From: a virus
Virus record (IMG/VR): IMGVR_UViG_3300044701_002446
Coordinates: 1 to 25,618 of that record
DNA length: 25,618 nucleotides
Strand: one strand, 5' to 3'
Shown here: piece after piece, positions 3,661 to 11,695 of the stretch
Layout: each line of letters begins with the position of its first letter
How positions within the stretch are numbered: position 1 is the first letter of the stretch
Made by a program: the position numbers and the translations under genes
Notes under the pieces: model-generated
What the model saw: only the letters and a program-made list of their open reading frames with translations
Databases searched by the model: none
Told to the model about the DNA's origin: nothing

Positions 3661-4029
3661 ATGAGATACTTCAAGCTGACCGAGTTCGACAGCCCCGACG
3701 CGCCCGGCTCCGGCGCCAAGATGGACAAGGAGTTCCTGGCTATGATTGACGAGGCCCGCCACCTCGCCGGGGTGCCCTTCAAGATTAACAGCGGCTATCG
3801 CACGCAGGCCCACCACAACAGCCTCGCGAAGAAGGGCTACAAGACAGCTAAGAACAGCGCACACCTGCGCGGATTCGCAGCGGACATCCACTGCCCCGAC
3901 AGCTCCAAACGCTACGCCATCCTCGCCGCCTGCATCAAAGCAGGCTTCAACCGCATCGGCGTGGCTAACACCTTCATCCATGTCGACAACGACCCCAGCC
4001 TCCCTGAAGACGTCATCTGGACATACTAA
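3661..4029 (+). CDS. Endolysin, peptidase M15 family
   Basis: 122 residues from the ATG at 3661, chosen because MRYFKLTEFDSPDAPGSG is the usual start of the family; a TTG 21 bases upstream would only add seven residues. The zinc-binding motifs of M15 (peptidase_M15_3/VanY-like) are present: SAHLRGFAADIH (His68 and Asp75) and FIHVD (His107). The fold also has the conserved SGYRT element at 44-48. These enzymes cut peptide cross-links of peptidoglycan, either as D-Ala-D-Ala carboxypeptidases or L-Ala-D-Glu endopeptidases; the exact bond cannot be told. There is no signal peptide, so export depends on a holin. It lies in a lysis cassette. The last 50 bases overlap the likely start of the next gene. 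Confidence 0.9.
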   Translation: MRYFKLTEFDSPDAPGSGAKMDKEFLAMIDEARHLAGVPFKINSGYRTQAHHNSLAKKGYKTAKNSAHLRGFAADIHCPDSSKRYAILAACIKAGFNRIGVANTFIHVDNDPSLPEDVIWTY

Positions 4030-4885
4030 GCTCAAGCAGCACGGACCCACCACGTGGTCGGTGGCCTACACCCGCAACGCATCCGACGGGCCGGCCAGGT
4101 TCCTCCTGCTGTCCGACGTCCACTTCGACAGCGTCAAGTGCGACCGAGACCGGCTGAAGCGGCACCTCGACGAGGCCGTGGCGAGAGACGCCGCGGTCTT
4201 TTGTTTTGGGGACTGGTTCGATTTGATGCAGGGCATGTACGATCCACGGCGCAGCTACAGCGGACTGCGACCGGAGTACAAGTCCATCACCTACCTCGAC
4301 GACGTCATCGAAGACAGCATCGAGTTCCTCAAGCCGTACGCTGACCGGTGGCTGTTCATGGGGCGCGGCAACCACGAGACCAACATCGAGAAGCGGCTGT
4401 CCACCTCACCCATCGACCGGCTGTGCCAGGGCATGGGCGGCATCGTTTCGCCAGGCAGTTACAGCGGGTGGATAAAGGTGCAGATTTCACGAGCCGAGAC
4501 CATCAACAAGATACCGATGCTCATGCACTTTCATCACGGCTACGGAGGCAACGCGCCACGCTCGAAGGGAGTGCTGAACGTCGACCTGGACCAGAAGGAG
4601 TGGCCGGATGCCGACGTCATCGTGAGCGGTCACACCCACCAGAAGTGGCACGTGCCGATGACGGTGGAGCGCATCGGCAGGGACATGCAGCTGCGCGAAG
4701 AGACCGTCCACCACGTGAAGCTGGGCAGCTACAAGATGCTCGACCGCTTCGCCGGGTGGGAGGTGGAAAAGGGCTTCGCTCAGCCACGCCTGGGCGGGTG
4801 GTGGATGGACGTGCTGTTCCACCGCGTGCGAACCGATGGCAGGGAAAAAATAAAGCACATCACTACCTTCACCGAAGCACACTAA
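3980..4885 (+). CDS. Metallophosphoesterase (calcineurin-like)
   Basis: 301 residues if begun at ATG 3980, which overlaps the endolysin by 50 bases; a GTG at 4061 is a later option. All five metallophosphoesterase blocks are present in order: SDVHFD (Asp46, His48), GDWFD (Asp78), GRGNHET (Asn131, His132), MHFHHG (His183-186) and GHTHQ (217-220). The full set of metal ligands predicts an active two-metal phosphodiesterase or phosphatase. The substrate is unknown: nucleic acid, a nucleotide second messenger and a cell-wall intermediate are all possible. The longer open frame upstream to 3746 is only a shadow of the endolysin. The position between the lysin and the small membrane proteins is unusual for a DNA enzyme. 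Family call secure; role open. Confidence 0.88.
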   Translation: MSTTTPASLKTSSGHTKLKQHGPTTWSVAYTRNASDGPARFLLLSDVHFDSVKCDRDRLKRHLDEAVARDAAVFCFGDWFDLMQGMYDPRRSYSGLRPEYKSITYLDDVIEDSIEFLKPYADRWLFMGRGNHETNIEKRLSTSPIDRLCQGMGGIVSPGSYSGWIKVQISRAETINKIPMLMHFHHGYGGNAPRSKGVLNVDLDQKEWPDADVIVSGHTHQKWHVPMTVERIGRDMQLREETVHHVKLGSYKMLDRFAGWEVEKGFAQPRLGGWWMDVLFHRVRTDGREKIKHITTFTEAH

Positions 4886-5329: not shown

Positions 5330-5357
5330 AGCCCTGCCCCCAACGGGGGGTGGGGCT
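5330..5357 (+). terminator. Strong hairpin ending the late operon
   Basis: A 12-base stem (5330-5341 with 5346-5357), containing two G-T wobble pairs, closes on an AACG tetraloop. It is very G+C-rich at the loop side and is followed by ACTTATTTGCCC, so the U-tract is poor. It stands 40 bases after the last lysis gene and before the early promoter, exactly where the rightward late transcript should end. Confidence 0.75.
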
Positions 5358-5378: not shown

Positions 5379-5427
5379 AAAAAGTTTGCAAAAAGTTTGC
5401 AGGGATGCGGAACGGGCTGTAACATTG
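5379..5427 (+). promoter_or_regulatory. Early promoter with tandem AAAAAGTTTGC repeat
   Basis: Two directly adjacent 11-bp copies of AAAAAGTTTGC lie at 5379-5389 and 5390-5400. The second contains TTTG (5396-5399), and 20 bases further is TAACATTG (5420-5427), close to the Bacteroidota -33/-7 pair TTTG and TAnnTTTG at its usual spacing. A start near 5433 would give a leader of about 20 bases before the ATG at 5455. The 11-bp period puts both copies on the same face of the helix, so the repeat may also be a protein-binding site. Confidence 0.6.
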
Positions 5428-5454: not shown

Positions 5455-5958
5455 ATGAACCTCTACGACGTAACCGTCAGCGCGTGCCGCGGTGCAATGA
5501 CACCACACGTGCACTCCGTCAACCTCGGCGAGTGGCTGGCCACCAACCACGAGCACCGGGCCAACAAGAAGGACAGCGCGGCCATCATGCCGCACGGCAT
5601 GTTCCACACCCGCCGGTCCGCTGACTTCCAATACAGCTCCGGCCTCGTGCAGGTCGACCTCGACGCCAAAGACAACCCCGGCATCAAGGACTGGCACGAG
5701 GTAGTTCACGCTTTGGGAACCCTCGACTCCGTGGCCTATGCCAACATCAGCGTCAGCGGCGCGGGCTGCTTTGTCCTGGTGAACGTGCTCGGCCTTGTGG
5801 GGCATCCGTTCGTAGCTGTGGCCAACCGTGCTATCGACTACATCACAGACCAGGGCTTCGTTGCCGACGAGAAGGTCAGCCGCAACCTCGCAAGCCTCCG
5901 CTTCATGCCATTCAGCCCCGACACCGCATACTGGAACCTCCAAAGCATCTCCCTGTGA
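5455..5958 (+). CDS. Stand-alone BT4734/VirE-N-like (PrimPol-related) protein
   Basis: 167 residues from ATG 5455; a longer frame upstream lacks a good start and runs into the promoter. The protein resembles the BT4734-like N-terminal domain (VirE-N group) that usually precedes a helicase in Bacteroidota mobile elements and is related to archaeo-eukaryotic primases. Visible marks are FQYSSGLVQVDLDAKD (Asp68 and Asp70, a DxD pair), SVSGAGCFVLV (99-109, the Ser/Gly-rich second motif), and SRNLASLRFMPFSPDTAYWN (142-161), close to the family ending that includes FxSxDPDxYxN. Here it stands alone, without the helicase part. As the first gene of the early operon it probably acts in replication, perhaps as a primase. 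The fold is a moderate-confidence call; catalysis is inference. Confidence 0.65.
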   Translation: MNLYDVTVSACRGAMTPHVHSVNLGEWLATNHEHRANKKDSAAIMPHGMFHTRRSADFQYSSGLVQVDLDAKDNPGIKDWHEVVHALGTLDSVAYANISVSGAGCFVLVNVLGLVGHPFVAVANRAIDYITDQGFVADEKVSRNLASLRFMPFSPDTAYWNLQSISL

Positions 5959-6194
5959 AAGATTACATCGCCATGACCATCGCCGACTTGGACGTCGACG
6001 ACGTGACGTTTGAGATTGAGTTTGAAGTGTGGACCGACACGAGCGGTCCGGGATCGGATGAAAGCTACATCGAGGTTACAAAAGCCACCCTGTGGTGCGG
6101 CAAGTTGAACATCGACGTGACGGAGCTCATGCAGCACAGCAGCGACGTGTTGGCGGTGATTGATAACTACCTCGACGAAACCAGCGGCGACTGA
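5955..6194 (+). CDS. Small acidic unknown protein
   Basis: 79 residues if started at the GTG that overlaps the previous stop (GTGA), or 73 from ATG 5973. Strongly acidic, with predicted beta strands (DVTFEIEFEVWTD, SYIEVTKATLWCGKLNIDV) and a final helix (LMQHSSDVLAVIDNYLDE). I do not recognise it. Its gene is coupled on both sides (GTGA before, TGATG after), so it belongs to the early operon that begins with the PrimPol-like gene. Confidence 0.65.
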   Translation: MKDYIAMTIADLDVDDVTFEIEFEVWTDTSGPGSDESYIEVTKATLWCGKLNIDVTELMQHSSDVLAVIDNYLDETSGD

Positions 6195-6349
6195 TGGACT
6201 ACCGAGCACTAGAGCAGGACTACATCAACCTGCGCAAGATGTACTCCATCGCCCACAGCTTCATCGTGGAGGTGGAGTCAGGCAGCATCGACTACCTCGT
6301 CGTGCAGAAGGCCAAACAAGTGTTAAACGACCTCAAAGACCTTGACTGA
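6194..6349 (+). CDS. 51-residue unknown early protein
   Basis: Starts at the ATG of a TGATG overlap and ends in another. Sequence begins MDYRALEQDYINLRKMYSIA and ends VQKAKQVLNDLKDLD; it looks mostly helical with a short strand in the middle. No motif or family recognised. The exact coupling on both ends is the main support for a real gene. Confidence 0.55.
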   Translation: MDYRALEQDYINLRKMYSIAHSFIVEVESGSIDYLVVQKAKQVLNDLKDLD

Positions 6350-6480
6350 TGGCACGGCACTACACACAGGAAGCGTATGAGGAAGCCCTCCGCTACGAGC
6401 AGCGCTTCACCGAACTGGTGCAGGAACTGAAGGAGCGCATCGAAGCCAAACACCCCGGACGATTCAATTTCAACAAGTGA
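6349..6480 (+). CDS. 43-residue unknown early protein
   Basis: Starts at the ATG of TGATG and ends in the same kind of overlap. It is almost entirely one charged helix (YTQEAYEEALRYEQRF, TELVQELKERIEAK) with a short tail HPGRFNFNK. No known family. Coupling on both sides supports translation. Confidence 0.5.
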   Translation: MARHYTQEAYEEALRYEQRFTELVQELKERIEAKHPGRFNFNK

Positions 6481-6716
6481 TGGCACACAACCACTACACC
6501 ACCAACGGCCCGCGCGTCGCGTCCACGTCGATGCCGGAGCGGGCGCCCGAAAGCTTCAACGCCTGGCAGGAGGAGCTGCAATGGGAGCGCGACCTCGAGC
6601 GCATCCTGGAGGACTTCAAGTATCAGCTGCGCGAGAAGCTGCGCACGGCGTACTACAACAACACGAGGTCACAATCTGTGATGTCAAACGACCACCAGCG
6701 TATCCAACAGTCATGA
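6480..6716 (+). CDS. 78-residue unknown early protein
   Basis: ATG 6480 sits in a TGATG overlap. The N-terminus is polar (MAHNHYTTNGPRVASTSM), followed by a long charged helix (FNAWQEELQWERDLERILED, FKYQLREKLRTAYYNN). No recognisable family. It overlaps the next gene by ATGA. A helical early protein of this kind could bind a host enzyme, but nothing in the sequence shows which. Confidence 0.6.
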   Translation: MAHNHYTTNGPRVASTSMPERAPESFNAWQEELQWERDLERILEDFKYQLREKLRTAYYNNTRSQSVMSNDHQRIQQS

Positions 6717-8551: not shown

Positions 8552-8819
8552 CGATTTCTTCGACGAGGCAGAGCTGGACAGCACCACGCTCATCGAGGTG
8601 CGACGTGTTCGCCTCGAGTCACTTATGCAGTGCACCGTCCTGTGGGACGACGAGGCGACCCTCGACGCCATCATGTACGGGCCGATGGATGACCAGACCT
8701 ACCACCACCTAAACCTGCGCCTCATCGCGCACCTCGACCGGCCCGACTCACGCGGCCGATGGACACAAACACAAATGGCACGTTTTATTAAATCCTTTAC
8801 CCATGAAACTAACGATTAA
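8538..8819 (+). CDS. 93-residue acidic unknown protein
   Basis: Begins MSELDDFFDEAELDSTTLIE, with later stretches TVLWDDEATLDAIMYGPMDD and LIAHLDRPDSRGRWTQTQMA. Very acidic in the first third, more basic at the end. No motif recognised. Overlaps both neighbours (14 bases before, 17 after), which supports translation in the early operon directly before the SSB gene. Confidence 0.65.
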   Translation: MSELDDFFDEAELDSTTLIEVRRVRLESLMQCTVLWDDEATLDAIMYGPMDDQTYHHLNLRLIAHLDRPDSRGRWTQTQMARFIKSFTHETND

Positions 8820-9153
8820 CGGCACCGTCAAGGCGGTGCAAGAGCCCAAGACCTACCCCTCAGGTTTCACCGTCTGCGACGTGCTTATCGAGAGCGGTAG
8901 CAACGTCTACCCCGTCACGTTTAAGAAGGACGACGTGGATGAAGCCCTGGCACTGGTGCCCGATTACCCCATCACCCTCGAATGCTGGCTGAACAGCCGG
9001 GAGTGGCAGGGCCGCTACTACGTGGAGCTGAAGTACGCCGGGAAGCCGGAGGCCGCACCTGCTCCTGAGGCGGCCAAAAAGCCAGCCGCAGGACGCACCA
9101 CCAACCGGATGGCACCACCCTCAGCACCAGCGCCCAATGACCTGCCTTTCTGA
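8803..9153 (+). CDS. ssb: DUF3127-like OB-fold single-strand binding protein
   Basis: 116 residues. The first 85 have the strand order of the DUF3127 OB-fold: MKLTINGTVKAVQEPK, FTVCDVLIESGSNVYPVTFK, then NSREWQGRYYVELKYAG, where SREWxGRYY is the best match to that family. DUF3127 proteins are SSB-like proteins typical of Bacteroidota. A flexible Ala/Pro-rich linker (86-110) leads to an end APNDLPF, which matches the acidic-hydrophobic SSB tip (DDIPF type) that recruits partner proteins. Likely function: cover single strands at the phage origin and cooperate with the annealing protein and initiator. The gene symbol is used by function. Confidence 0.75.
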   Translation: MKLTINGTVKAVQEPKTYPSGFTVCDVLIESGSNVYPVTFKKDDVDEALALVPDYPITLECWLNSREWQGRYYVELKYAGKPEAAPAPEAAKKPAAGRTTNRMAPPSAPAPNDLPF

Positions 9154-9163
9154 CGAAAACTAC

Positions 9164-9397
9164 ATGATAGTGAGCAGCATGGAAGCGTTCCTCAACAAAC
9201 ACTACGGCAGCCTGACCATGGCGGCCGGCAAGCTCAAAGTCAGCCCGCAGACCATCACCAACTGGCTGAAGCGTAACCCGCGCGGGCTGCTCAAGCACAT
9301 GCCGACCATGGTGCAACAGTGCAACGTCACCGAGACCCAAATCATGGGCGAGGTGCTGTACCACGAGGAGTACCTGCAGAGCATCGGACAACGGTGA
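9164..9397 (+). CDS. Small helix-turn-helix protein
   Basis: 77 residues from ATG 9164; an ATG at 9137 would add nine residues and overlap the SSB gene by 17 bases. The core MEAFLNKHYGSLTMAAGKLK, VSPQTITNWLKRNPRGLLKH is a classic HTH: AAxKLxVSxQTIxNW. Proteins of this type are common in phages next to replication genes and may be Cro-like regulators. It ends in a GTGA overlap with the initiator gene. No dimerisation or protease domain is present, so it is not a full CI-type repressor. It is the only candidate transcription regulator I see in the window. Confidence 0.75.
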   Translation: MIVSSMEAFLNKHYGSLTMAAGKLKVSPQTITNWLKRNPRGLLKHMPTMVQQCNVTETQIMGEVLYHEEYLQSIGQR

Positions 9398-10158
9398 ACA
9401 ACTACCTCCAGCTACCGACAGAGGCTGCCGCGCACCTGCGGCGGCTCTCTGCCGTGCAGCTGTATATCTGGGCCGACGCGTGGACCTTCCAGCAGAACGG
9501 GCAGCAGGCCTACCGCTCCAACGCGAAGCTGGCGCATATGCTCGACATCTCACCGCGCAGCGTGTCACGGGCCATCCAAGGCCTGCACGAGGCGGGCATG
9601 CTGTCCGTACGTATCCAGCAGGAAGGCGAGACCATCAAGCGATACGTCACGGCGACCCTACCGACACGAACGTCACCCCCCGACACGAACGTCGTGGGGG
9701 TACCGACACCAACGTCGGGGGGGTACCGACACGAACGTCATGGGGGTACCGACACGAACGTCCACATAATAGATAAGAAGAATAAAGAAGTTAATAGAGA
9801 AGTTAAAAGAGAAACGCGCGCGCGCGAGGTGGTTTGGCCTTTCAATTCTGACCAGTTTATGAATGCCTGGAAGGAGTGGGAGGCCGATCGCCGCGAGCGA
9901 CGCATCAAGCCCTACACCACCCGCGGCCTCCAGACCGCACTACACCGACTCCAACAAATCAGCCAGGACAATGAGCACACAGCAACCCAAATCATCGCCC
10001 AGTCAATCGCCAACGGATGGCAAGGGCTTTTCCCTATCCGCAACGAACGGCAGCCAGCACGCCCTGAGCGCCCACGTGGACCAGACATCACTCCGGACGA
10101 TGTTGCGCGAATTGTGGCGACCCGATGGGGACCAAAATTTCCCCGAGCGGACAAGTGA
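9394..10158 (+). CDS. Replication initiator, winged-helix plus DnaD-like C-terminus
   Basis: 254 residues from the GTG at 9394, coupled to the HTH gene. Residues 18-72 are a winged helix (LRRLSAVQLYIWADAW, then SNAKLAHMLDISPRSVSRAI, QGLHEAGML). Residues 88-146 are a low-complexity linker encoded by the iterons. Residues 148-214 (WPFNSDQFMNAWKEWEADRR, then YTTRGLQTALHRLQ, SIANGWQGLF) match the C-terminal domain of phage replication organisers of the DnaD-like group, with the typical SIxNGWxGxF end. The protein should bind the repeats within its own gene and recruit the helicase loader, as lambda O does. The C-terminal 59 bases overlap the next gene. Function is a strong inference from domains and the embedded origin. 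Confidence 0.8.
   Translation: MNNYLQLPTEAAAHLRRLSAVQLYIWADAWTFQQNGQQAYRSNAKLAHMLDISPRSVSRAIQGLHEAGMLSVRIQQEGETIKRYVTATLPTRTSPPDTNVVGVPTPTSGGYRHERHGGTDTNVHIIDKKNKEVNREVKRETRAREVVWPFNSDQFMNAWKEWEADRRERRIKPYTTRGLQTALHRLQQISQDNEHTATQIIAQSIANGWQGLFPIRNERQPARPERPRGPDITPDDVARIVATRWGPKFPRADK
9659..9762 (+). repeat. Iterons of the predicted replication origin
   Basis: Five copies of CCGACACGAACGTC start at 9661, 9680, 9703, 9726 and 9749 (the third has one mismatch, CAC-C-AAC). Spacing is 19, 23, 23 and 23 bp, and copies 3-5 are each preceded by GGGGGTA. Because 19 and 23 are not multiples of three, the copies are read in different frames (PTRTS, PDTNV, TPTSG, RHERH, TDTNV), so conservation is at DNA level. 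This is the arrangement of lambda-type origins, in which the initiator binds repeats inside its own gene. Confidence 0.85.
9675..9701 (+). other. Hairpin within the iteron array
   Basis: ACCCCCCGAC (9675-9684) pairs with GTCGTGGGGGT (9691-9701) with one bulged T at 9695 and a loop of ACGAAC. The hairpin is centred on the second iteron. It could form when the strand is single, for example at initiation, and serve as a binding or priming site (inference). Confidence 0.6.
9763..9826 (+). other. A+T-rich stretch and CG run next to the iterons (predicted unwinding site)
   Basis: Immediately after the last iteron come about 50 bases with hardly any G+C clamp (CATAATAGATAAGAAGAATA and following, strongly purine-rich on this strand), in a genome of roughly 60% G+C, then an alternating CGCGCGCGCGCG tract ending near 9826. 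Iterons plus adjoining A+T-rich DNA are the usual parts of an initiator-dependent origin. The alternating CG tract could take left-handed form under strain. Confidence 0.7.
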
Positions 10159-11531: not shown

Positions 11532-11695
11532 CACCGTGTGCCTCATTCAATTCGCTGACCTACAACGCCTTGACGGGGTAGGGGGGTGGAGAAAATGGGG
11601 CGCGCGGAAGGTTTACACCGGCGCAGTTGGTGGGGCGAGGATGGTATCGGGACAAATTGGGACCAAAAAAGGAAAAGGGGAAATACCTTCGCGAT
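11532..11695 (+). other. Non-coding gap between HNH and small terminase; cos candidate
   Basis: No convincing gene lies here; a 66-codon open frame has unnatural composition. The stretch holds a run of G tracts (GGGGTAGGGGGGTGGAG followed by AAAATGGGG, 11575-11600) that could form a G-quadruplex, several repeated TTGG/GGGG words, and the TACCTTCG box at its end. In HNH-TerS-TerL phages the cos site commonly lies in this position, so this is the best place to look for the packaging start; I cannot see the actual cut site. Confidence 0.4.
11684..11691 (+). promoter_or_regulatory. Putative -7 box TACCTTCG before terS
   Basis: TACCTTCG lies four bases before the ATG at 11696 and is followed by C, giving the same nine bases (TACCTTCGC) as before the portal gene. 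A TTGG at 11657 is the nearest TTG, 24 bases upstream. Would start the packaging transcript at or near the start codon. Confidence 0.6.

Follow-up and report, generated by a model that had tools for sequence, protein, structure and literature searches.

A stand-alone BT4734-like archaeo-eukaryotic primase core behind the early promoter of a small phage: a candidate accessory polymerase

Described relatives of the BT4734-like domain

Archaeo-eukaryotic primases (AEPs) of the BT4734-like family (PF08800) are known from Bacteroidota elements and phages, either as proteins of about 300 aa in which PriCT-2 accompanies the AEP domain, or as proteins of about 700-900 aa in which the VapE helicase is added to these two. 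A helix bundle is present in the RepB' primase of RSF1010, which acts at plasmid origins. In ORF904 and in the PrimPol of NrS-1, the latter containing both a helix bundle and a helicase, the bundle (PriCT) is required for de novo priming and not for extension; furthermore, the NrS-1 loop SPS-G-x-G holds the gamma-phosphate of the nucleotide (PMC8718748). The PrimPol of cyanophage S-2L, a 737-aa protein of the all3500-like family with PriCT-2 and a helicase-like domain, is the replicative polymerase of its phage; it shows no primase activity in standard assays, and its isolated AEP domain of 190 aa still polymerises (PMC8065100). Finally, DbCAPP, a CRISPR-associated protein of the CAPP_B type that counts 337 aa and adjoins Cas1/Cas2, combines a VirE-N catalytic domain with a C-terminal region and no helicase fusion, and is an active polymerase and primase, activity being abolished by mutation of its DxD (PMC8211822).

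The window described here, that is the whole stretch of 25,618 nucleotides analysed, carries at 5455-5958 (+) an intact ORF of 167 aa, which encodes a stand-alone AEP catalytic domain of the BT4734/VirE-N-like type. The protein shares with the PF08800 proteins motifs I-IV, the fold, the N-terminal K/PHGxF region and the SxSGxG loop without a motif II His; unlike them, it consists of the core only, with neither PriCT-2 nor helicase, has one more residue after motif III, lacks the arginine of SRLR and shows FS in place of YD. Its loop, SVS-G-A-G, resembles that of NrS-1 PrimPol. With DbCAPP it has in common the VirE-N catalytic domain, the DxD and the lack of a helicase fusion, but it is half as long and belongs to the early operon of a phage, free of CRISPR genes: no Cas protein is found among the Pfam and PHROG matches of the early genes, and the operon context of a CAPP, with Cas1/Cas2 or type III CRISPR, is therefore missing.

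By Pfam, no PriCT-2 is matched in the 167-aa protein, whose C-terminus extends 17 residues beyond motif IV, and its whole length leaves no fused VapE, DUF5906 or AAA helicase; in six other loci (L072, L074, L028, L022, L019 and L071) PriCT-2 does follow the AEP domain. The domain is thus alone, as an initial annotation made from the sequence had described it. The further statement of that annotation, that a helicase normally follows this domain, holds only in part: of the 48 PF08800 frames found among about 296 Bacteroidota genomes, 27 lack a helicase. By length, 20 frames are of 531-1036 aa, 27 of 272-404 aa and one of 203 aa, with none shorter than this last, and the helicase-free proteins examined (L072 and L074) are AEP plus PriCT-2. 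Helicase-free BT4734 forms are common in Bacteroidota and AEP-only forms are nearly absent. A minimal free primase of this class had also been called unusual; it is the loss of PriCT-2 that is unusual, and the word primase is doubtful. Because the PriCT-2/helix-bundle module needed for de novo priming in published AEPs is missing, 'minimal polymerase' would be a likelier description than 'minimal primase'.

Identity, predicted fold and active site

PF08800 matches the 167-aa protein with 18.0 bits (E=0.0033), under the curated cut-off of 22.4, so that the profile search proposed in the initial annotation gives a match that stays sub-threshold; a PHROG primase/helicase profile matches it with E=5e-4. 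In a tblastn search of annotated phages, BT4734-type proteins are found (E=4e-5), the matches being only parts of longer proteins, among them a 358-aa ORF of MT836914, whose C-terminal part resembles PriCT-2 by eye, and a twinkle-like protein of Tenacibaculum phage Larrie. The same gene occurs in five IMG/VR contigs at 95-100% identity, two of the five copies being cut by the contig end. Scans with a small alignment recruited 57 viral and 19 Bacteroidota loci, and all 28 members of the family alignment match PF08800. Moreover, divergent free AEPs were detected in three phages that are more distant but share the terminase type, and these AEPs score above the cut-off (G020, 24.9; G021, 37.4; G022, 23.5). 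Among PDB chains, phmmer gave zero matches for the 167-aa protein, and the profile matched only 7OLA, a DNA primase, weakly (E 0.29). No stand-alone homologue of this AEP group was detectable in INPHARED phages by the searches run; the G021-type AEP has no match there, and the G020-type has a weak one in Inoviridae records (E 0.02). Membership in the AEP superfamily is established and kinship with the BT4734-like family is very likely: although the PF08800 match is sub-threshold, the assignment is firm because of the profile alignment, the three stand-alone relatives above the cut-off, the AlphaFold2 model and the fold matches, and the domain named in the initial annotation is in this way confirmed.

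The AlphaFold2 model was obtained from the 28-row alignment (pLDDT 91.8, pTM 0.89); the single-sequence model is unusable (pLDDT 40), the prediction being usable only with that alignment. In BFVD, the model has 26 matches at E<=1e-3, led by phage primases of the VirE-N/BT4734 type (E=2.6e-10, TM 0.82). In comparison with solved structures by VIA-align, over residues 2-167, the best match is the S-2L PrimPol AEP (6ZP9, Z 7.5), followed by RepB' (3H20, whole length, 6.8) and archaeal PriS (6.6); Z scores of 6-7.5, being below 8, are moderate on their own, and the full-length rows are mostly AEPs. Ferredoxin-like and HMA rows, which cover only 60-80 residues, were set aside. With Foldseek, no PDB entry matched the model at E<=1e-3, human PrimPol coming closest (0.011), so that the evidence from the PDB is that of the VIA-align Z scores. 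The comparison with PrimPol cores that had been suggested thus points, for the predicted structure, to an AEP fold over the full length.

In the alignment of 28 sequences the invariant columns are G63, D68, D70, K72, S99, G102, D138 and R149, and the window protein keeps eight of eight; G63 and K72 are not retained in the stand-alone AEPs of G021 and G022. Motif I, D68-L-D70 (5656-5664, +), is predicted to bind metal, is invariant in the 28 sequences and corresponds to the DxD whose mutation abolishes the activity of DbCAPP (PMC8211822). The motif II region, S99-V-S101-G102-A-G104 (5749-5766, +), would form the loop for the nucleotide triphosphate; S99 and G102 are invariant and G104 is present in more than 90% of the sequences. 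Motif III is A137-D138, with the invariant third acid Asp138 at 5866-5868 (+), and motif IV, 'Rh', is R149-F150 (5899-5904, +) with R149 invariant, this motif having been defined for PrimPol-PV1, of another supergroup, and transferred here (PMC5862659). At the level of sequence, the motifs of the acidic triad (hhhDhD/E and hD/E) are therefore in place as D68, D70 and D138. The first two, together with SxSGxG, had been noticed in the initial annotation and are recovered in translation and alignment; the third acid had not been named.

The place of the His in the motif II sxH of classical AEPs is occupied by Phe106, so the protein does not conform to the His-type pattern; this His varies among AEP families (PMC5862659), and, since it is missing from every row of the BT4734-like alignment, its absence is a family trait rather than decay. 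At the C-terminus, LRF-x2-F-S-P-D-x2-Y-x-N agrees with the closing pattern already reported for the protein, but its Asp is off the family position, the canonical 'YD' being 'FS' (S154); likewise, the canonical 'SRLR' is 'ASLR' (S147). Loss of the SRLR arginine and a one-residue insertion after motif III are common to the other stand-alone AEPs, a subfamily pattern that explains S147, while S154 is peculiar relative to G020, which retains SYDP. Within the clade of the window AEP, dN/dS is 0.12-0.22: the gene is under purifying selection and its catalytic residues are retained. Decay of the gene was rejected on these grounds, in line with the earlier argument from the Asp/Asp and Ser/Gly residues. 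A non-catalytic remnant, surviving as a DNA- or nucleotide-binding protein, would account for the two changed family-typical residues (S147 and S154) and for the loss of PriCT-2 and helicase; we regard it as very improbable, the three acids, the motif II Ser/Gly and the motif IV Arg being kept across three deeply diverged stand-alone clades.

The early operon and the variable slot behind its promoter

The gene is preceded by an intrinsic terminator at 5330-5357 (+), with a 12-pair stem, a loop of 4 and a T-rich tail, which closes the upstream lysis/late unit and whose hairpin is also found in the leaders of sister phages, and by a Bacteroidota-type promoter at 5396-5427 (+), TTTG-N20-TAACATTG, the sole match to this pattern in the window (chance mean 0.24). 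The same promoter spacing and -7 element are found in the AEP-containing G003 and in the AEP-less sister G017; the pattern was not found in G008, which also lacks the AEP. Because terminator and promoter both precede the start at 5455, the AEP gene is the first of a new transcription unit, and its placement at the head of the early genes in the initial annotation agrees with this. An upstream TTG start (5386, giving 190 aa) was rejected, as it precedes the promoter.

Directly after the AEP gene, and overlapping its stop by 4 nt (GTGA), there is a gene for a 79-aa protein (5955-6194, +) with no match in Pfam or PHROG and no assigned function. Further downstream, the early region encodes an SSB-like protein of the DUF3127 type (8803-9153, +; PF11325 E=6e-6, just under the cut-off; PHROG SSB E=0.006), an O-like replication initiator (9394-10158, +; phrog_678 E=7.6e-21), NinG and HNH proteins. 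Inside the O-like gene, in the region 9655-9820, iterons with a period of 23 bp (CCGACACGAACGTC) occupy 9680-9762 and are followed by an AT-rich tract, an arrangement that resembles the lambda origin. Among the early proteins scanned with Pfam and PHROG, no helicase and no other primase are recognisable, as had been stated for the primase. The lambda-O-like arrangement would recruit the helicase and the primase of the host, which, judging from the promoter type, the DUF3127 protein and where the relatives of the AEP come from, is probably a member of the Bacteroidota, the phage being small and from freshwater.

A terminase scan retrieved 80 related contigs, and 20 records were then searched with the AEP profile, which matched in only four. 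It gave none in six sisters, all metagenomic records like the others (G006, G007, G008, G009, G017 and G018), the whole head of the early operon being present on the contigs judged. In these six, identity to the window proteins is 86-92% for the SSB, 96-100% for the annealing-type protein and 92-98% for NinG, and early genes are mostly 85-100% identical. In G007, G008 and G017 the leader joins directly to the gene that follows the AEP (ATGAAAGATTAC, compared with GTGAAAGATTAC behind the AEP); G006 and G009 have a different small gene in the slot and G018 another. With junctions that in the sisters are either empty or hold other genes, the slot is variable, and phages of this kind can replicate without the AEP. 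A role as sole or essential phage primase was rejected, since the AEP-less sisters share the rest of the early operon, and the implication of the initial annotation that this is the phage's own primase is contradicted by them. Nor is the AEP tied to the O-type initiator, since G008 has an O protein 88% identical to that of the window yet no AEP. The other small slot genes (L175 ~6220-6694, L177 ~2419-2754 and L180:5549-6052) have no assigned function, and the slot may be a good place to look for accessory early genes.

The 79-aa protein is 95% identical in the AEP-containing G003 and 57-63% in the AEP-less sisters, and the two genes may travel together as a cassette. This distinct form of the overlapping gene would fit a true minimal primase whose helix-bundle function comes in trans from another protein of the phage or its host (candidates include the O-like initiator, the SSB and the 79-aa protein itself), as would the stand-alone, early position, the full set of metal-binding residues and the lack of another phage primase in the early-gene scans. 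We nevertheless find this explanation unlikely: PriCT-2 was not matched among the scanned early proteins, sisters whose replication genes are the same live without the AEP, and the AEPs of ORF904 and NrS-1 lose priming without a working helix bundle (PMC8718748). The content of the slot, which holds different genes in sisters, also suits a gene for counter-defence or host takeover that employs the AEP fold with or without catalysis, is expressed immediately after DNA entry and is swapped between phages; in the same sense, the AEP is the first inward gene from a terminus-like contig end in G021 and G022 and lies between contig start and terS in G020. Purifying selection and the kept metal-binding residues point instead to catalysis, and by our estimate such a gene is also unlikely, ranking after a primase completed in trans and before a dead remnant.

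Proposed role and the stand-alone lineage

The gene is an accessory one and represents an AEP-only BT4734 lineage, a new variant among BT4734-like AEPs. Our preferred reading, to which we give a probability of roughly 0.6, is that the protein is catalytically competent, consists of the AEP core only and is carried as optional cargo after the early promoter, where it would serve as an accessory polymerase; we infer the activity and the role from the family, fold, residues, selection, position and presence/absence pattern. Made early in infection from the variable slot, the AEP would bind primer-template, with Asp68, Asp70 and Asp138 holding two metal ions and S99-x-S-G-x-G together with Arg149 holding the incoming nucleotide triphosphate, and would extend 3' ends with dNTPs. 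Alone it is expected to prime poorly or not at all, because the PriCT-2/helix-bundle module is absent, and it would most likely act as a gap-filling or primer-extending polymerase, possibly together with NinG, the SSB and the annealing-type protein. For bulk replication, the O-type initiator would use the helicase, primase and replicase of the host. Against this reading are the two family-common residues that differ (R to S147, YD to FS154), the about 120 residues beyond the AEP domain in DbCAPP, its closest tested relative by domain type, and the presence/absence pattern, which fits any accessory role and not polymerisation alone.

The free AEPs of the more distant phages are of similar size, 155 aa in G020 (L172:90-554), which has relatives at 65-88% identity, and 186 aa in G021 and G022 (L173:1318-1875 and L174:1321-1878, both on the - strand, ~62 bp from the contig end). 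In the tree, these and the window AEP fall on one side of a branch with support 92/90 (unstarred), the branches being long, so a single origin of the stand-alone clades is likely rather than certain; the G020 clade has a dN/dS of 0.07-0.22, and the G021/G022 pair one of 0.32. Taken together with the catalytic residues common to the three clades, these data indicate a long-lived stand-alone AEP lineage in related phages. More tentatively, and at somewhat less than even odds, this lineage may have kept, despite its deep divergence, a free AEP core of 155-186 aa, without a priming module, as a mobile accessory polymerase beside lambda-O-type replication with the host helicase. If true, it would be a stand-alone early polymerase for gap filling or end processing, or else a primase that a second protein of the phage completes in trans; we found no description of such a division of labour in the papers on AEPs that we read. 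The AEP polymerase core would here be naturally separated from the priming and unwinding modules, in a set of very small, apparently selected proteins suited to asking what the core does alone, and the sisters with and without the AEP, otherwise near-identical in their early operons, amount to a natural deletion series for its role.

Some minor observations concern the genome itself. At 3890-4882, after the lysis genes and ahead of the early operon, a calcineurin-like metallophosphoesterase is encoded, which is matched by PF00149 (E 2e-8) and by a PHROG profile for DNA repair exonuclease (E 1.9e-18). The contig ends, 1-1269 and 24350-25618, are 95% identical over 1269 bp, and the genome unit is therefore about 24.35 kb, the contig being permuted and slightly over-long, perhaps from mixed strains. 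In the distant phages, the AEPs of G020 and of G021/G022 adjoin opposite contig ends resembling genome termini. Many related contigs end at a position corresponding to ~11618-11635 of the window, ~366-375 bp upstream of terL, and what is missing between the two ends of G003 reads CGGCGCA in the window, which looks like a cos site with its cohesive end lost; the ends of the phage are thus probably cos-like.
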